Program-made: the position numbers and the translations under genes
From: Alphaproteobacteria bacterium bin52
GTDB taxonomy: Bacteria > Pseudomonadota > Alphaproteobacteria > Thalassobaculales > Thalassobaculaceae
Assembly (NCBI GenBank): GCA_002238645.1
Contig: MPMT01000002.1
Location: 1-64,000 of the forward strand
DNA: 64,000 nt
Direction of reading: 5' to 3'
Part shown: piece after piece, positions 50,110 to 60,829 of the stretch
How the letters are laid out: each line of letters starts with the position of its first letter
Position numbering within the stretch: position 1 is the first letter of the stretch
Notes under the pieces: generated by a model
The model's input: the letters and a program-made list of their open reading frames with translations, nothing else
The model's database searches: none
Told to the model about the DNA's origin: nothing

Positions 50110-53100
50110 GTGTCCCAGGCAAGGCCGATACGCAAGCTGCTGATCGCGAACCGCGGCGAAATCGCCATCCGCATCACGCGTGCGGCCAACGAACTCGGGA
50201 TCAGGACGGTCGCGGTCTATTCGCACCAGGATCGCTATGCCCTGCACCGGTTCAAGGCTGACGAGGCCTACCTTGTCGGCCGGGACAAGCCGCCGGTCCA
50301 GGCCTATCTCGATATCGAGGACATCCTGCGCGTTGCCCGGATGACCCGGGTGGACGCCGTCCATCCCGGCTACGGCTTCCTGTCGGAGAACCCTGACTTT
50401 GCCGCGGCCTGCATCGCCGCCGGTGTGAACTTCGTCGGCCCGCCGCCCGAGGTGATGCAGCGGCTGGGGAGCAAGGTGGAGGCGCGCCTGCTCGCCGAGC
50501 GCAGCGGACTTGCCGTCATGCCGGCCACCGCCGCGTTGCCCCGGGACCCGGAGCAGTGTGTCGCGCTCGCCGAGGAGATCGGATTTCCGGTGATGGCCAA
50601 GGCGAGTTGGGGCGGTGGAGGCCGCGGCATGCGGGTGATCGCGGATGCCGGGTCCCTCGGCGACCAGCTTGTGCAGGCGCGACGCGAAGCCTACGCCGCC
50701 TTTGGCAACGACGAGATCTTCCTCGAGAAGCTGGTGCGCCGGGCCCGGCACGTCGAGGTGCAGCTGCTCGCCGACAGCGCCGGTACCGTCGTTCACCTGC
50801 ACGAACGTGACTGTTCGATGCAGCGGCGCAACCAGAAGGTGGTCGAACGTGCGCCTGCCCCCTACCTGTCGCGAATCGAGGCCGCGGAGCTCTGTTCAGG
50901 CGCGGTCCGACTTGCGCAGGCGGCCGGATACCGCAACGCCGGAACGGCGGAATTCCTGCTCGACGTGGAGACCGGCCGGTTCCACTTCATCGAGGTCAAT
51001 CCACGCATCCAGGTGGAACATACAGTCACCGAGGAAATCACCGGCATCGATATCGTCAAGGCCCAGATCCGCATCGCGGAGGGCGCGCTCATCGGCGATG
51101 GCGCAAGCGGGGTGCCGGAGCAGGACAGCATCCGAATCAACGGACACGCGCTGCAGTGCCGGATCACCACCGAGGATCCGCTGAACCGGTTCATTCCCGA
51201 CTACGGACGGATTACCGCGTACCGGGGCGCCAACGGATTCGGTATCCGGCTCGATGGAGGCACGGCGTATTCCGGGGCCGTGATCACTCCGTTCTACGAC
51301 TCGCTGCTCGAGAAGGTGACCGCGTGGGCACCGACCGCCGGGGAAGCTGCGGCCCGGATGGACCGGGCACTGCGCGAGTTCCGCATTCGCGGCGTCGCCA
51401 CCAACCTCGTCTTCCTCGAGGCCCTGGTCGGTAACCAGGATTTCCGTGCCGGCAGGGTGACCACCACCTTCATTGACGACACCCCGGCCCTGTTCGACTT
51501 CAGGCCGCGCCGCGACCGTGCCACGCGCCTGCTGACCTTCATGGGCGAGGTGCTGGTCAACGGCAACGAAGAGGTCAGGAACCGGCCGCGGCCGACAGCA
51601 CGTCACCAGATCCGTCCGCTGACCCTGCCGGCGGGGGATACGCCCGCGGGCAGCCGCCAGCACCTGGACACCGCCGGTCCGGATCGATTTGCGCAGTGGA
51701 TGCGGGAGCATGACCGCGCCCTGGTCACGGACACGACAATGCGTGACGCCCACCAGTCGCTGATTGCGACCCGGATGCGCACCCACGACATCCTGCAGAT
51801 CGCACCGGCCTACGCCCGGTTGCTACCGCAACTGCTCTCGCTTGAATGTTGGGGCGGCGCCACCTTCGATGTCTCGATGCGTTTTCTGAAGGAAGATCCG
51901 TGGGACCGTCTCGAGGGCATCCGCGCCGCAGTGCCAAACATCCTGCTCCAGTGCCTGGTTCGCGGCGCCAACGGAGTGGGATACACCAATTATCCGGACA
52001 ACGTGGTCCGGTTCTTCATCCAGCGTGCCGCCGCTTCGGGAATTGACCTGTTCCGGGTATTCGACTGCCTGAACCTGGTGGACAGCATGCGGGTGACCAT
52101 GGACACCATCCTCGAGGAGGAGAAACTCTGCGAGGCCGCAATCTGCTACACCGGAGACCTGACCGACCCGGACAGTCGCTACGATCTCGCCTACTATCTC
52201 GAACTCGCCCGCAGCCTCGAGGCCGCCGGTGCACATATCATCGCCATCAAGGACATGGCGGGTCTGTGCAAGCCGGAGGCGGCGCGCCGGCTGATCACGG
52301 CGCTGCGCCAGGAAGTGGGAACCCCGATCCACTTCCACACCCACGATACCAGCGGAATCGCGGCCGCCAGCGTGCTCGCCGCTGTCGAGGCGGGCTGTGA
52401 CGCCATTGACGGCGCCATGGATTCATGGAGCGGGCTGACTTCGCAGCCCAATCTCGGATCGATCGTCGAAGCCCTGCGCGGCACCAGGCATGACACCGGT
52501 CTTGACCACGACGCCCTGCGCCGCATCGATGGCTACTGGGAAGACGCCCGGCACCACTATGTGGCCTTCGAGAGCGACATGCGTTCCGGGTCTTCGGGCG
52601 TATTCCGGCACGGCATGCCCGGGGGACAGTTTACCAACCTGCGGGAACAGGCCCGGGCCCTGGGACTGGAGACCCGCTGGCCCGAGGTCGAGAAGGCCTA
52701 CGCCGATGTAAACGACATGTTCGGCGACATCATCAAGGTCACACCGACTTCCAAGGTGGTCGGCGACATGGCGGTTGCCATGGTCAGTGCCGGTCTCGCG
52801 CCCGACGACGTTGTTGATCCCGATCGCGACATCTCCTGGCCAGGATCGGTGGTTTCATTCTTTCGCGGTGAGCTCGGCCGGCCGGACGGCGGGTTTCCGC
52901 AGGCGCTGCAACGCAAGATCCTGCAGGACCAGGAACCCCTCGACGGGCGTCCCGGCGCCCTGCTCGATGCGGTCGATCTCGAGGCTGTCCGTGCCGAGGC
53001 CGCGCGCCGTATCCGGCGCAGCGTCAGCGACAACGATTTGGCTTCCTACCTGATGTATCCGGAAGTGTTCGTCGAATTCGCGGCACACCGTCGCAGCTAT

Positions 53101-53565
53101 TCCGATGTCGGCGTACTGCCCACCCCGGTGTTCTTTTTCGGCCCGGTCGTCGATGAGGAATTCGAGATCGAGATCGAGCAGGGCAAGGTGCTGCTGGTCA
53201 CCCTGCTGGCGCTCGGAGAACCTGACGAAGAAGGGATGCAGACCCTGTTCTTCGAGCTGAACGGCCAGCCGCGGACCGTCCGCATTGCCAACCGCGCATT
53301 GCTCTCGGACCAGGCCGCACGCCGCAAGGCGGACGAGACGGCGCCGGAACAGGTGGGCGCCCCGATGCCGGGCCGGATCGTCGGCCTCGCGGTTGCGGTC
53401 GGGGACAGGATCGGGCGCGGCGATCCCCTCTTCACCATCGAGGCAATGAAGATGGAAAGCGTGGTCTTCAGCGAGATCCCGGGCACGGTGGAGGAAATCG
53501 TCGTCCCGGCCGGACACCAGGTGGAAGCCCACGACCTGGTCCTGGTCCTTGCACCAGCGGAGTAA
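50110..53565 (+). CDS. pyc: Pyruvate carboxylase
   Basis: Biotin enzyme carboxylating pyruvate to oxaloacetate. It has 1151 residues, start GTG, full family length. The order is biotin carboxylase (KLLIANRGEIAIRITRA, KASWGGGGRGMRV, FIEVNPRIQVEHTVTEE), carboxyltransferase (DTTMRDAHQSLIATRMRT, FDCLNLVDSM, DMAGLCKPEAA, HFHTHDTSG), the allosteric linker, and the biotinyl domain with the lysine in EAMKMES (Lys1114). It refills the TCA cycle from pyruvate produced by the Eda and Eno routes in this window. Confidence 0.96.
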   Translation: MSQARPIRKLLIANRGEIAIRITRAANELGIRTVAVYSHQDRYALHRFKADEAYLVGRDKPPVQAYLDIEDILRVARMTRVDAVHPGYGFLSENPDFAAACIAAGVNFVGPPPEVMQRLGSKVEARLLAERSGLAVMPATAALPRDPEQCVALAEEIGFPVMAKASWGGGGRGMRVIADAGSLGDQLVQARREAYAAFGNDEIFLEKLVRRARHVEVQLLADSAGTVVHLHERDCSMQRRNQKVVERAPAPYLSRIEAAELCSGAVRLAQAAGYRNAGTAEFLLDVETGRFHFIEVNPRIQVEHTVTEEITGIDIVKAQIRIAEGALIGDGASGVPEQDSIRINGHALQCRITTEDPLNRFIPDYGRITAYRGANGFGIRLDGGTAYSGAVITPFYDSLLEKVTAWAPTAGEAAARMDRALREFRIRGVATNLVFLEALVGNQDFRAGRVTTTFIDDTPALFDFRPRRDRATRLLTFMGEVLVNGNEEVRNRPRPTARHQIRPLTLPAGDTPAGSRQHLDTAGPDRFAQWMREHDRALVTDTTMRDAHQSLIATRMRTHDILQIAPAYARLLPQLLSLECWGGATFDVSMRFLKEDPWDRLEGIRAAVPNILLQCLVRGANGVGYTNYPDNVVRFFIQRAAASGIDLFRVFDCLNLVDSMRVTMDTILEEEKLCEAAICYTGDLTDPDSRYDLAYYLELARSLEAAGAHIIAIKDMAGLCKPEAARRLITALRQEVGTPIHFHTHDTSGIAAASVLAAVEAGCDAIDGAMDSWSGLTSQPNLGSIVEALRGTRHDTGLDHDALRRIDGYWEDARHHYVAFESDMRSGSSGVFRHGMPGGQFTNLREQARALGLETRWPEVEKAYADVNDMFGDIIKVTPTSKVVGDMAVAMVSAGLAPDDVVDPDRDISWPGSVVSFFRGELGRPDGGFPQALQRKILQDQEPLDGRPGALLDAVDLEAVRAEAARRIRRSVSDNDLASYLMYPEVFVEFAAHRRSYSDVGVLPTPVFFFGPVVDEEFEIEIEQGKVLLVTLLALGEPDEEGMQTLFFELNGQPRTVRIANRALLSDQAARRKADETAPEQVGAPMPGRIVGLAVAVGDRIGRGDPLFTIEAMKMESVVFSEIPGTVEEIVVPAGHQVEAHDLVLVLAPAE

Positions 53566-54690: not shown

Positions 54691-54852
54691 TCTGTCAGTT
54701 CTTTGGAGAGCAGTGTCTTATTTCCATGCCTTGGCAAACGCTTTCCATTAGTGTCCTAGTACACATTTACCCGATTTTATGGCGACCGGTAAGTTATTTG
54801 GCGCATCGCTGGATGTGATCTTTGCTCAATTGGTGATAGGTGATGACACGGG

Positions 54853-54934
54853 AGGTGCTCTGTAGCTCAGTAAAAGGGAGCGTCCCCATAACGAAGGTGA
54901 AGGTGCCAAGTTCGGACCCTGCTAAAACTACCGC
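54853..54934 (+). pseudogene. Degraded tRNA-like sequence
   Basis: GTAGCTCAGTAAAAGGGAGC looks like an intact D arm (GCTC/GAGC with AG...GG loop), and AGTTCGGACCC resembles a T arm (loop TTCGGAC). The anticodon stem has a mismatch and the T and acceptor stems do not pair, so this is not a working tRNA. It may be a decayed tRNA gene or an old attachment site fragment; chance similarity is possible. Confidence 0.3.
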
Positions 54935-55223
54935 TTCCCGTGCGTATTCTGGCACACGATTACCAAATGGCGGCACCAATCGTAGCCGCCCCCGATACTA
55001 CGCCGGTCATTGGAGGGACCGGCGGTATCCGCAGCGGCGATGGACCGGGTTCGGACGCGGGAAACGGGGCGGTAGCCGGACCGTCTGTTTCTGCCGCTCG
55101 GGCCCGGGAACCGTTTATCTGCTCATGGCCTGCACCCGGGCGAACCGTGAAGACCTGACGCCAACGGACACCAGAGGCGTTGTCGCGGTTGGTCGCGGCG
55201 ATCAAGAGGGAGGCAACGGGTCA

Positions 55224-55538
55224 ATGACGGGCGAACGTACAGAACTCGGACGGGAAATCGAAACAGCACTGGGCGAGGTTCTCGACCATGTGCGCGGCGA
55301 GACGGCCTTGCCGTGCCGGATCGTCGACGATCCCGCCGCCGACCGAATTGTCGCACTCCGCAAGCGGTTGCGGCTGAGTCGGCAGAAATTCGCCGACCGG
55401 TTCGGTCTCGATGTGCGGGCACTTCAGGAATGGGAACAGGGCCGGCGCGTTCCCGACAGGGCGGCACGGGTGTTGCTCACCGTGATCGACCGGGACCCCG
55501 AGGCCGTGGTCAGGGCACTTGGCGCTGATGGCACCTGA
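55224..55538 (+). CDS. Helix-turn-helix (XRE/antitoxin-like) protein
   Basis: 104 residues from ATG, preceded by GAGGGAGG. A helix-turn-helix is visible in the second half: IVALRKRLRLSRQKFADRFGLDVRALQEWEQGRRVPDRAARVLL, shown here as two pieces of one motif (RLSRQKFADRFGLDVRALQE and WEQGRRVPDRAARVLL). The N-terminus is acidic (GREIETALGEVLDHVRGE). The layout matches antitoxins of type II systems such as HigA-like proteins. No toxin gene is recognisable on either side, so it is an orphan regulator or the remnant of a toxin-antitoxin pair. The frame extends upstream to 54840 but without similarity. Confidence 0.75.
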   Translation: MTGERTELGREIETALGEVLDHVRGETALPCRIVDDPAADRIVALRKRLRLSRQKFADRFGLDVRALQEWEQGRRVPDRAARVLLTVIDRDPEAVVRALGADGT

Positions 55539-56025: not shown

Positions 56026-58665
56026 TCAGAAATGGGCCTCGAGGGTGCGATGGTCCGAGTTGCAGGCGGCGACATCGAGTGCGGCGTCCGGTGGCAGCCG
56101 CGGCTGCTGGCGCAGCCCCACGGTCTCGCGGATCGCGAGTTCGAACCGCTCGAGCCCCGGCAGGATGCTGACCGCCGCCGCCCGGCGCCAGGCGACCTCG
56201 GCTGCCATCGTCTCCAGCACCTTCGCAAGCTGTCCGCGCACCTTCTCGATGTCGGGGCGCCGCTTGCGCAGGGTCTTGCGCACCTTGGACAGTGCCGAGA
56301 CCAGTGACCTGCTTCCCGGCACCGCGCGCAGCTCGCGTTCCGCCTGCCTCATCGCCTGGGAGGCCTGCTTCGGCTCGGTGGTCGCAATCACCACGTCAAG
56401 CTCGCCGATCCGCGGTGCGAGTTCGGCCAGACCGTCGGCTCCCCGCAGGATCCCGATGGTTTCGCGAAGCGCGCCATAGGCCGTGTCGACAGTCCGGCGA
56501 TAGGTCGTGCGCGCCCGCGCCTCCGCTGCCAGCAGCTGCGCGAACCCCTCCCGTTCGCTGTCCCAGTGCGCGGGAATCTGCGCGAGCAACCCTTCCCGTT
56601 CCCGGTCGAGTTCCGCGATTTCCGCTTCCTCGTTCCCGGTGCGTCCGACACGGTTCGCATCGCGTTTCAGTCTGGCGCTCTCGGTATCGAGGCGACGGAC
56701 GACGCGTTCGATGGCCCGGACCTCACGCAGCACCGGGATGTACCCGGTCTCGGCCGCCTCGCGCGCCTGCTCGGCCGTCCGGACGGCGGCAACCAGTTCC
56801 GGGACCCCGGCAACGGTCTCGAAACTGCTCTCCAGCGCCCGGCGCGGTTTCGGCGGCAGGTCCAACAGGTCAAGTGCCCGGACATCCGACAGCGCCCGGT
56901 CGAGTTCCCCCTGCCCGCTTTCGTAGCGCGCGAACACATGCTCTTCCACACAGGCCTGCAGCCGCGGGTTGATCGGCGGTGGAGCCGTTTCGGAGAGCAG
57001 TGAAACCCGGTTGGGCAGGTAGTTCACCAGCGAGGGCGTCACGCCGACGATCACAAGTGCGAACAGCTGCAGGCAGATGAACGGGACTACGCCCTTGTAC
57101 ATCTCGATCGTGCGCACGGTCGCCGAGGCAACTCCGCGCAGGTAGAACAGAGCGAAACCGAATGGCGGGGTCAGGAACGAGGTCTGGATGTTCAGTCCGA
57201 TCATGACGCCGAGCCACACGGCGGTCACGTTGGCGGATGGGTCGGCCAGCAGGATCGGTGCGACGATCGGAACCACCACGACGGCGATCTCGATGAAATC
57301 GAGGAAGAAGCCCAGGATGAAGATCACCAGCATCACGATGACGAACTGGCTCCAGAAGCCACCAGGAAGGCCCTGGAGGAAATCGCGTACCAGTTCCTCG
57401 CCGCCGAAGGCGCGGAAGGCGGCGGTCAGCATCGCGGCGCCGAGCAGGATGATGAAGACCAGCGAGGTGGTCTTCGCGGTCTCGATCATGACACCGCGCA
57501 ACGTGTCCTCGATGCGCAGCGCCCGCCAGCCGCTCCAGACAATGGCCACCAGCAGGGCCGCAACGGCGACGGCCGCAACGACCAGGGCAGCAACGTCGCG
57601 GCCGGTGTCGATCCGCTTCACGTTGATTTCGTGGATGGCCAGGGCCGCGCCCAGGACCACGACGGCGACTATCGCGAGCGCCGCCGGCCGGTAGGCCCCG
57701 GGCGTCCCCGCGGTCAGCCGGTACCCGGCCATGATCAGCGCCCCGACGGCACCGATGGCGCCGGCCTGGTTGACCGTCGCCACACCGCTCAGGATCGAGC
57801 CCAGAACCAGGAAGATCAGGGTGAGCGGCGGAACCAGGACGACCAGTACCCGCACGACGAAGCCGCGGTCGCCGACGGCCGAGCGCGGTATCGCGGGCGC
57901 CACTCCCGGGCGCAGCAGCGCAATGCCGAGAATGAAGGCCATGTACAGGCCGACCAGCACAAGTCCGGGAATGAAGGCACCGAGGAACATCTCGCCGGCG
58001 CTGGTCGAGGATATGTCGAAGGCCGACGGCATGGTCGGTTCGCCGGTCGCCTGCTTGTACAGCGCCTTGCGCGCCGTGCTCGCCTGATCGGTGGCGCTCG
58101 CCAGCTGGTCGGAGAGGATGATCAGGACGATGGAGGGAGGGATGATCTGACCGAGCGTACCCGACGCCGCCACAGTCCCGGTGGCGAGCGGCCTCGAGTA
58201 GTTGTTCTGCAACATCGCCGGCAGCGAGATCAGTCCCATGGCCACCACTGTCGCCCCGACGATCCCGGTCGTCGCGGCGAGCAGGGCGCCCACGAAAACC
58301 ACCGATATCCCGAGACCGCCCGGGATGCGCCCGAACATCTGCGCCATGGTGATCAGCAGGTCCTCGGCGATGCGGGAGCGCTGCAGCATGATCCCCATGA
58401 AGATGAACAGCGGAATCGCGATCAGGGTATCGCGCTCCGCCTCCCAGTAAATGCCGCGGAAATTGGTGACGCCCGCGCTCAGCCACTGGACCGGCCCGCC
58501 CTGGGCGAAATAGGCGTCGGGATTGTCAGCAAACAACGCCCCGGCGCCGGCCGCCACCGCAACGGACAGGATCGCGGCACCCGGCAAGGCGAACGCGACC
58601 GGGAAACCGGCGCCGAGGGCGGCGGCCATCAGGATGATCAGAAGTGCGAGAAACAGCAGTTCCAT
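56026..58665 (-). CDS. dctM: TRAP transporter large permease (DctM) with C-terminal coiled-coil extension
   Basis: 879 residues. About the first 565 form a DctM subunit: FMGIMLQRSRIAEDLLITMAQMFGRIPGGLG, LPAMLQNNYSRPLATG, SGTLGQIIPPSIVLIIL, FFLDFIEIAVVVVPIVAPIL and NIQTSFLTPPFGFALFYL. It is already longer than typical DctM (about 425-440) owing to extra hydrophobic segments in the middle (about 300-400). The last roughly 300 residues are soluble, charged and helical (ELDREREGLLAQIPAHWDSE, VRKTLRKRRPDIEKVRGQL), predicted coiled coil. It is the last gene of dctP-dctQ-dctM. Confidence 0.9.
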   Translation of the reverse strand: MELLFLALLIILMAAALGAGFPVAFALPGAAILSVAVAAGAGALFADNPDAYFAQGGPVQWLSAGVTNFRGIYWEAERDTLIAIPLFIFMGIMLQRSRIAEDLLITMAQMFGRIPGGLGISVVFVGALLAATTGIVGATVVAMGLISLPAMLQNNYSRPLATGTVAASGTLGQIIPPSIVLIILSDQLASATDQASTARKALYKQATGEPTMPSAFDISSTSAGEMFLGAFIPGLVLVGLYMAFILGIALLRPGVAPAIPRSAVGDRGFVVRVLVVLVPPLTLIFLVLGSILSGVATVNQAGAIGAVGALIMAGYRLTAGTPGAYRPAALAIVAVVVLGAALAIHEINVKRIDTGRDVAALVVAAVAVAALLVAIVWSGWRALRIEDTLRGVMIETAKTTSLVFIILLGAAMLTAAFRAFGGEELVRDFLQGLPGGFWSQFVIVMLVIFILGFFLDFIEIAVVVVPIVAPILLADPSANVTAVWLGVMIGLNIQTSFLTPPFGFALFYLRGVASATVRTIEMYKGVVPFICLQLFALVIVGVTPSLVNYLPNRVSLLSETAPPPINPRLQACVEEHVFARYESGQGELDRALSDVRALDLLDLPPKPRRALESSFETVAGVPELVAAVRTAEQAREAAETGYIPVLREVRAIERVVRRLDTESARLKRDANRVGRTGNEEAEIAELDREREGLLAQIPAHWDSEREGFAQLLAAEARARTTYRRTVDTAYGALRETIGILRGADGLAELAPRIGELDVVIATTEPKQASQAMRQAERELRAVPGSRSLVSALSKVRKTLRKRRPDIEKVRGQLAKVLETMAAEVAWRRAAAVSILPGLERFELAIRETVGLRQQPRLPPDAALDVAACNSDHRTLEAHF

Positions 58666-58692: not shown

Positions 58693-59670
58693 TCAGTGGC
58701 CGGGGACGCCTTCCGGCTCGCGACGACCCGCCTCGCCGCGTGTGTCCGCGATCGCTTCGAGGAAGTAACTGGTGAACTGGATCAGCATCGAGACCGCGAA
58801 AAGGCCGAGGAATCCCGCCATCAGGTATTTCACGTACAGTCCGAACCCGGCCTGGGTCACCTCGAAGGCAAGCAACGGGCTGTTGATGACCGACGACTTG
58901 CTGCCCATCCCGAAAGCCAGGATGACCCAGCACATCGACATACCCAGCGTGACGGCGCCCACGGCATTGACCCATCCCTTCGCCCGCCCGGACAGGCCGG
59001 CGTAGAACACGTCGACACGCACATGACCTTCCTCCATGAGGGTATAGGCGCTGGCAAACAGGAACAGTGCCGCGTACCAGAACCGGACCAGGTCGGCCAT
59101 GAAGGCCTGTTCGTAGGAAAAGACGAACCGGGCGATGACGATCAGGAGTTCGGCGATCACCACCAGTGCCGCGAGCCAGTGAAACCCGATCGAACGCGAG
59201 AATGCCGCGCAGACAAGCCCCACGAGTACGAGCGGCCAGTGCAGCCAGGTGCCGCGGAAACTGGACTTGCCGAGATCGCGCGCCAGGGTGTCGCCAACCA
59301 TCCCGGGAAGCAGTTCCTCGATGCGCAGGAACGAGACCACGGCATCGGCGACGCCGACAAGAAGTACCGCCCAGAACGCGCCGCGGATCAGGTACCGATT
59401 GATGTCGGCGATTCTCAGGGCGTCGACGCGAAGCGGGACCGACGGCGTGGCCAGCACCCACGCGCAGGCCAGCACCACCGCGGCGCCGTAAAGGCCGGCC
59501 TGCATCCAGGCGACCGCCGGTGGCGCCGTGTCAGCGATCGCGGTGCTGCCCGGAAACCGGTGCCAGAGCGTCAGGTAATTGTCGGCCAGGAATGCCGCGA
59601 GAATTCCCAGCATGCCCCAGCCGAAACACCGGGCGATCGGGACCCCGGGTCCCGGCGGTCTGTCCGACAT
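58693..59670 (-). CDS. dctQ: TRAP transporter small permease (DctQ family), long form
   Basis: 325 residues with about eight hydrophobic segments, against about four in the common 160-220-residue DctQ. The DctQ signature is in the second half: FLFASAYTLMEEGHVRVDVFYAGLSGRAKGWVNA (split by a membrane edge). The first 150 residues are an extra membrane domain. It lies 27 bp before dctM and 64 bp after dctP, with a good AAGGAACGG site. Together they form a tripartite ATP-independent importer. Confidence 0.85.
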   Translation of the reverse strand: MSDRPPGPGVPIARCFGWGMLGILAAFLADNYLTLWHRFPGSTAIADTAPPAVAWMQAGLYGAAVVLACAWVLATPSVPLRVDALRIADINRYLIRGAFWAVLLVGVADAVVSFLRIEELLPGMVGDTLARDLGKSSFRGTWLHWPLVLVGLVCAAFSRSIGFHWLAALVVIAELLIVIARFVFSYEQAFMADLVRFWYAALFLFASAYTLMEEGHVRVDVFYAGLSGRAKGWVNAVGAVTLGMSMCWVILAFGMGSKSSVINSPLLAFEVTQAGFGLYVKYLMAGFLGLFAVSMLIQFTSYFLEAIADTRGEAGRREPEGVPGH

Positions 59671-59734: not shown

Positions 59735-60829
59735 TCAGAGGTCGAGGACCCGGTTGCGCTGGGCGACGAACGCCATATCGGAGAACCCGCTCCAGCGGCC
59801 GATGTCGTCACGCGCGGACGCGAAGGCATCGTGCACCTTGGCTGCGAGCGGGCTGTGCGCACGGGTTTCGGCAAAGACCTGGGCCGCGGCGTCCCCGAAG
59901 CTGTCGTAGACGTCGTCATTGAACTCGCGCAGTTCGACGCCGTGCTCGGTGATCAGGCGCGACAGGTAGCTGCCGTTATTGGCGTTGGTTTCCGCCGTCT
60001 GGCGCGCGTTTTCCTCGTTGCAGGCCGCCTCGATGATGGCCTTGTCGGTACCCGACAGTCCGGACCAGAAGTCGAGGTTCAAGCCGAAGGCCAGCTGTGA
60101 GCCGGGCTCATGCATGCCGGGGTAGTAGTAGTACTTGGCGGCTTCGTAAAACTTCATGAAGTAGTCGTTGTACGGGCCGACCCATTCGGTCGCGTCAATG
60201 GCGCCCGCGACCAGATTCTCGTAGATCTGGCCGCCCGGCAGCGAAACCGGTGATGCGCCGAGCTTGGCCATGACGTCTCCGCCAAGACCCGGAATGCGCA
60301 TCTTCAGGCCCTTCAGGTCGTCCGCCGTCTCGATTTCCTTGTTAAACCAGCCGCCCATCTGCACGCCGGTGTTGCCGCAGGCGAAGTTCTTCAGGCCGAA
60401 ACCGCCGGCGACCTCGTCCCACAGTGCCTGGCCGCCAGCGTACTTGATCCACGCGTCCATCTCGGTATAGGTCAGCCCGAACGGAACGGACGTGAAATAC
60501 GCCCAGGCCGGATGCTTGCCCTTCCAGTAGTAGTCGGCCGCGATGTAGGCCTGCGCATTGCCCGATGCGACCTCGTCGAACGAGTCGAAGGCCCCGACCC
60601 GCTCGCCGGCCGCAAAGTACTGCACGTTGAGCCGGCCCTCGGTCAGCTCGCCTATGCGCGCAGCCAGACGCTGGGCCGAAATACCGAGGCCAGGGAAGTC
60701 GCGCGGCCAGGTCGAAACGATGGTCAGGTCCTTGGCTCCCTGCGCCAGGGCCGGCGTGGCCAGTGTCGTGGCTGCAGCACCCGCAGCTGCAGCAAGGGTG
60801 CCGGTTTTCAGGAATTCACGGCGATCCAT
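59735..60829 (-). CDS. TRAP transporter periplasmic binding protein (DctP family, TakP-like)
   Basis: Solute receptor of the TRAP importer, 364 residues from ATG (MDRREFLKTGTLAAAAGA), preceded by AGGGAGAA. The RR-containing start, DRREFLK, is of the twin-arginine type, and the signal ends near PALAQGA. The mature fold has TIVSTWPRDFPGLGISAQRLA, MKMRIPG-like LKMRIPGLGGDVMAKLGASP and AIDATEWVGPYNDYFMKFYE, which resembles the TakP group that binds 2-oxo acids. The substrate is inferred, not proved. A frame extending to 61303 is spurious. Confidence 0.88.
   Translation of the reverse strand: MDRREFLKTGTLAAAAGAAATTLATPALAQGAKDLTIVSTWPRDFPGLGISAQRLAARIGELTEGRLNVQYFAAGERVGAFDSFDEVASGNAQAYIAADYYWKGKHPAWAYFTSVPFGLTYTEMDAWIKYAGGQALWDEVAGGFGLKNFACGNTGVQMGGWFNKEIETADDLKGLKMRIPGLGGDVMAKLGASPVSLPGGQIYENLVAGAIDATEWVGPYNDYFMKFYEAAKYYYYPGMHEPGSQLAFGLNLDFWSGLSGTDKAIIEAACNEENARQTAETNANNGSYLSRLITEHGVELREFNDDVYDSFGDAAAQVFAETRAHSPLAAKVHDAFASARDDIGRWSGFSDMAFVAQRNRVLDL

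Follow-up and report, generated by a model that had tools for sequence, protein, structure and literature searches.

The large subunit (M) of a TRAP transporter encoded in the window, the whole stretch of 64,000 nucleotides that was analysed, continues beyond its last membrane helix for about 320 residues with no break in the reading frame. This tail is a real, conserved domain in a known transporter family, and no published description of it was found. The whole system can be read as an alpha-keto-acid TRAP importer in which a periplasmic, disulfide-held tail would dock the binding protein; the docking role is inferred, and we consider the arguments for and against this reading to be about evenly balanced.

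TRAP Operon and Membrane Core of the M Protein

The three TRAP genes are located on the minus strand in the order P–Q–M, separated by gaps of 64 and 27 bases:

59735..60829, minus strand: binding protein (P) of the TakP family with a twin-arginine-type signal (DctP Pfam match, 1e-51; TakP 2hzk, E 1.2e-71)
58693..59670, minus strand: enlarged small subunit (Q), 325 aa, with eight predicted membrane segments (DctQ match, family-mean hydropathy)
56026..58665, minus strand: large subunit (M), 879 aa, with the tail (ORF, Pfam DctM)

The start codon of P was assumed to be the ATG of MDRREFLKTG. In 80 loci from named genomes, the P–Q–M order is kept wherever the contig extends far enough.

A pyruvate carboxylase gene (1151 aa, 50110–53565, plus strand) is convergent with the TRAP operon. 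It was rejected as a partner gene because it is not conserved as a neighbour: it neighbours the tailed operon in only two of the 81 loci, those of the window and L100. Downstream of the operon, the ORF at 54840–55538 (plus strand) has an MqsA-antitoxin-like helix-turn-helix (2e-6, just below the curated cut-off). Genes of histidine kinase-like and response regulator-like proteins lie divergently upstream of the P gene in eight or nine loci (L059:1491-3558 and similar). They are possible regulators of the operon; most loci do not have them, and they are not adjacent to the operon of the window.

The M protein belongs to the DctM family by its profile match, by the possession of both twin-proline motifs and by its operon with P and Q. 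The Pfam DctM family (PF06808) matches residues 11 to about 550 in three stretches with 212.5 bits against a curated cut-off of 23.8. The motifs P176-P177 and P500-P501 are invariant in 95 aligned rows; a twin-proline motif is found at both ion sites of TRAP M subunits (PMC9971032). The last hydrophobic segment of M spans residues 525-543.

57010..58665, minus strand: membrane core, residues 1-552, with both twin-proline motifs (DctM match, PDB TRAP matches, invariant prolines)
57502..57714, minus strand: two extra hydrophobic segments, residues 318-388, common to tailless sisters (hydropathy, sister comparison)

The sequence-only reading had counted extra hydrophobic segments in the DctM part among the oddities of this protein. 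The segments are indeed present at residues 318-388; they are not linked to the tail, since the tailless sister M proteins have the same core, including both segments. The segments are missing only from the two ordinary DctM proteins (~430 aa) that were compared.

Fusion of the Tail to the M Protein and Its Distribution

A long extension after the last membrane helix of M had been flagged at positions 56026-56970, together with the doubt that a frameshift might join two genes. Residues 559-879 correspond to this span, and homologues with the same fusion were found in 19 rows from near genomes and in 80 loci of named genomes; for a few loci, the organism may be the same in both sets. Among the 61 near genomes searched, the tailed M protein was found over essentially all of its 879 residues, with no internal stops, in 20 places in 19 genomes, the window's own included. 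In the named genomes, the tail is present in 80 of 80 loci; most of the proteins are 879-890 aa in length, and one is cut by a contig end.

When the tail alone was used as a query, strong matches were obtained in 31 of 385 genomes of the class and in 7 of 398 genomes of the phylum, all of them in frames of 838-960 aa. No standalone tail gene was found among the 385 class genomes. Three weak matches among the 398 phylum genomes (E from 3e-4 to 5e-4, 87-97 of 328 positions, frames of 457-487 aa) resemble a generic coiled coil. The tail profile had no match in the loci around the tailless sister systems. Thus, neither a separate tail gene nor a stop after the membrane part, the two findings named beforehand as speaking against the fusion, was found.

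Compared with the nearest relative (94% identity), the tail has 18, 14 and 53 nucleotide changes at codon positions 1, 2 and 3. The dN/dS ratio for this pair is about 0.21 in the tail and about 0.04 in the core. A frameshift or assembly error was therefore rejected: the open frame recurs in many genomes, and the tail is under coding constraint in the nearest pair.

Tailed M proteins form one group on the tree built from the core only, where 46 tailed rows lie on one side of a single branch and 13 tailless rows on the other (SH-aLRT 100). This tree comes from a quick search, and its two ordinary DctM rows have very long branches. A plasmid search revealed no place covering 80% of the query, and the best matches listed stop at residues 551-585, short of the tail or close to where it begins.

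Alphaproteobacterial hosts of the named loci include Roseibium, Stappia, Amylibacter, Planktomarina and SAR116; hosts outside this class include Gammaproteobacteria, SAR324 and Desulfofustis. Many of the hosts come from marine sources. One near genome contains a second full-length tailed M protein (G002:C4:34544-37201) with 51% identity to that of the window; the tailed system can thus occur twice per genome.

Structure and Conservation of the Tail

From residue 544 on, the M protein has 52 K+R and 51 D+E residues and no membrane segment. Because the full-length M model from 19 close sequences predicted the core poorly, the tail was modelled separately.

56029..56991, minus strand: tail, residues 559-879, all-helical domain, predicted periplasmic (AlphaFold2, 87 sequences)
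56164..56442, minus strand: four-helix bundle inside the tail, residues about 742-834 (AlphaFold2 model, structure matches)

The AlphaFold2 model of the tail alone, constructed from 87 sequences, has a mean pLDDT of 94.1 and a pTM of 0.86 and consists entirely of helices, with no strand. Helices of 30, 53 and 41 residues are followed by the four-helix bundle and then by short helices. The description of the tail as a coiled coil, made from the sequence, holds in that the region is charged and helical; it understates the case, because the confident all-helical model with its bundle predicts a folded domain, more than a simple coiled coil.

No whole-domain match to the tail was found in the PDB among the structure matches listed. 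Among the rows listed by Foldseek, the best E was 0.057 and the TM to the tail was at most 0.27. The VIA matches cover mainly the bundle, with Z of about 11, and unrelated helical bundles often give values under about 13. One of many bundles matched was the ligand domain of McpS (Z 10.4); since this score is within the range of unrelated bundles, an McpS-like identity of the bundle was rejected.

Conservation of the tail is strongest at its two ends, and the middle is variable, with 25-40% identity to the window in all but the nearest relative. Residues P562, P563, P564, N566, P567, C572, R650, P698, W701, C868 and F879 are invariant in 87 tails.

Enlarged Small Subunit

The DctQ match in the Q protein is limited to residues 176-299 of 325. 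The N-terminal part is an extension that is conserved across 73 aligned Q proteins and missing from the tailless sister systems.

59191..59670, minus strand: N-terminal extension of Q, residues 1-160, four further membrane segments (73 aligned Q proteins)

An origin of the extension by duplication of DctQ is unsupported (hhalign probability 0.4%). The Q gene was seen in 78 of the 80 tailed loci; 74 of these genes are neither cut nor split, and their open frames have 319-402 codons. In the tailless systems, namely nine sister systems and the second systems of L061 and L134, the Q frames have 183-224 codons. The small subunit had been put at about double the ordinary size; the Q protein of the window has 325 aa and eight predicted segments, against these 183-224 codons. 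Q is enlarged in 74 of 74 complete tailed systems and of ordinary size in 11 of 11 tailless systems checked. The long tail and the large Q go together, and both are absent from the 11 tailless sister systems, which bears out the suggestion of an unusual TRAP assembly.

In L061 and L134, the tailless second TRAP system (L061:8780-10961, L134:8648-10578; Q of 185-186 codons) is located directly downstream of the tailed one.

Binding Protein and Putative Substrate

TakP binds pyruvate together with a sodium ion (PMC1839085). The TakP ligand residues Y100, Q156, R177, E214, W215 and E240 correspond to Y111, Q167, R188, E225, W226 and E251 of the window P protein, and all six are invariant in 68 relatives. 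Because P resembles TakP and has all six ligand residues, the substrate is most likely a 2-oxo (alpha-keto) monocarboxylate such as pyruvate, as far as can be judged from sequence. 2-Hydroxy acids may also be substrates by analogy, since a more distant relative of P binds lactate.

A gene with pyruvate:ferredoxin-oxidoreductase and DUF6537 domains, the make-up of indolepyruvate:ferredoxin oxidoreductase, is found downstream at some distance in six loci (neighbour group 14). A gene of this kind also comes after the tailless second systems in L061 and L134.

Comparison with Known TRAP Systems

The closest known system is TakPQM: TakP of Rhodobacter sphaeroides (PDB 2hzk/2hzl) belongs to the same binding-protein family and has the same six sodium-pyruvate ligand residues. 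Sizes were compared with those of nine tailless sister systems. These sisters have M proteins of ~517-529 aa and Q frames of 183-224 codons, whereas in the window a 320-residue tail is added to M and 160 residues to Q. The structures of HiSiaQM (7qe5/8thi), PpSiaQM (7qha/8b01) and IseQM (9pym) contain the same M core by sequence and structure; the matches to SiaQM and IseQM stop at residue 551-553 of the window M protein, and these structures have no counterpart of the tail.

A C-terminal extension is known from VcGluQM, a TAXI-TRAP, where models place a periplasmic claw domain between the transporter and the binding protein; its authors note that no such extension is reported in DctP-type systems (PMC11574862). 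The claw (DUF3394) is mostly beta and lies between extra membrane helices in the fused QM protein of a TAXI system. The tail of the window M protein, in contrast, is all helix, follows directly after the last membrane helix and is part of a DctP-type system whose Q and M are separate proteins. The DUF3394 profile had no match to this protein at E up to 1, whereas the positive control, the L009 protein of the same genome, was matched at 4.8e-58. The tail was accordingly rejected as a claw domain, having no DUF3394 match, no strand and no membrane segment.

The control (L009:6958-9582, contig C5) is a TAXI-type TRAP protein of 874 aa with DctM and a DUF3394 claw, and its gene adjoins a binding-protein gene. 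One genome thus carries two kinds of C-terminal TRAP extension.

In the TPAT systems, a TRAP binding protein is bound by TatT, which is helical and periplasmic (PMC5812351). TatT is a separate protein, whereas the tail is fused to M. TatT was neither among the first 25 of 89 Pfam families for 17 tails nor among the fold matches listed. In the literature on C-terminal or coiled-coil extensions in DctP-type TRAP systems, nothing was found beyond the claw paper (PMC11574862).

Cysteine Pair and Location of the Tail

Each tail contains exactly two cysteines, located in the same two alignment columns in 80 of 80 proteins of the named set and in 19 of 19 of the near set. In the named set, this amounts to 160 cysteines, whereas about 281 would be predicted by the composition of neighbouring genes.

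56950..56952, minus strand: codon of invariant Cys572, near the start of the tail (alignments)
56062..56064, minus strand: codon of invariant Cys868, near the end of the tail (alignments)

Given the invariance of this pair, a Cys572-Cys868 disulfide most likely clamps the two ends of the tail. In the cryo-EM structure of PpSiaQM, the M subunit is N-out/C-out, and its last helix, TM12, forms part of the second transport repeat (PMC9971032). The core of the window M protein has an even number of extra segments, which leaves its C-terminus on that side of the membrane. With the known M protein C-out, the segment count even and the cysteine pair the only one, a periplasmic tail attached to the moving domain is the most likely arrangement.

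A tail on the cytoplasmic side is unlikely, and one that links the importer to an enzyme of metabolism, for example pyruvate carboxylase, is very improbable: the pyruvate carboxylase gene near the window's operon and the two extra hydrophobic segments could suggest it, but this gene is a neighbour in two of the 81 loci only, the even number of segments leaves the end of M on its side, and two invariant cysteines without others would be unusual for a cytoplasmic domain.

Possible Role of the Tail

P, Q and M would together make up a TRAP transporter that imports alpha-keto (2-oxo) monocarboxylates, for example pyruvate, with an ion gradient powering uptake through the usual elevator core. The C-terminus of M would be in the periplasm, and the 320-residue tail would be composed of long helices with an inserted four-helix bundle, its two ends joined by the Cys572-Cys868 disulfide. 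Placed after the last helix of the moving (elevator) domain, the tail could act as a docking arm that holds the TakP-like P protein at the transporter, and the eight-helix Q could be the matching enlarged scaffold. Docking is proposed because the claw of VcGluQM offers an analogy. Two observations speak against it: conservation is poor in the middle of the tail (25-40% identity to the window), though one would expect a docking surface to be retained, and tailless sister systems with TakP-like binding proteins manage without a tail. The wider proposal, that the moving subunit of a widespread DctP-type TRAP clade acquired an all-helical, disulfide-clamped docking arm in the periplasm and that the clade gained an enlarged, eight-helix Q along with it, is tentative and falls just short of an even balance.

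The co-occurrence of the tail and the enlarged Q, without exception in the systems checked, could also mean that the tail packs on Q or on another M copy and stabilises or oligomerises the membrane complex without touching P. HiSiaQM can form dimers (PMC10942642), and the conserved ends of the tail are close to the membrane in sequence terms. The extension of Q, however, is mostly predicted membrane helices and leaves little periplasmic loop for binding a large domain, and it would be odd for the scaffold to be stabilised by a tail fixed to the domain that moves. We regard packing of this kind as rather unlikely.

With its helices of 53 and 41 residues, ~6-8 nm long if straight (0.15 nm per residue), the tail could reach outward from the transporter and connect it with the cell wall, with a porin of the outer membrane or with some other protein in the periplasm. 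Yet no known wall-binding domain was recognised among the best 25 of 89 Pfam families for 17 tails, and among the minority of neighbour groups that carry an annotation, none was recognised as a recurring porin gene. Such a link is improbable.

Little probability is likewise given to the tail as a sensor domain, whose bundle would bind a ligand or report transport to a partner such as a neighbouring two-component system. The likeness to the McpS ligand domain and the kinase-like and regulator-like genes upstream in eight or nine loci agree with it; a Z of 10.4, however, is in the range common for unrelated helical bundles, and the two-component genes are missing from most loci, including the window's operon.

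Significance of the Tailed Systems

TRAP transporters accept their substrate only from the binding protein, and the manner of their meeting is still being worked out. A conserved periplasmic arm on the moving half of the transporter would offer a testable handle on this meeting. If the docking reading is true, the tail would be the first binding-protein docking domain described for a DctP-type TRAP system and a counterpart, with an unrelated fold, of the TAXI-TRAP claw. As many of the hosts are marine, the tailed variant may handle a share of the small keto acids there.
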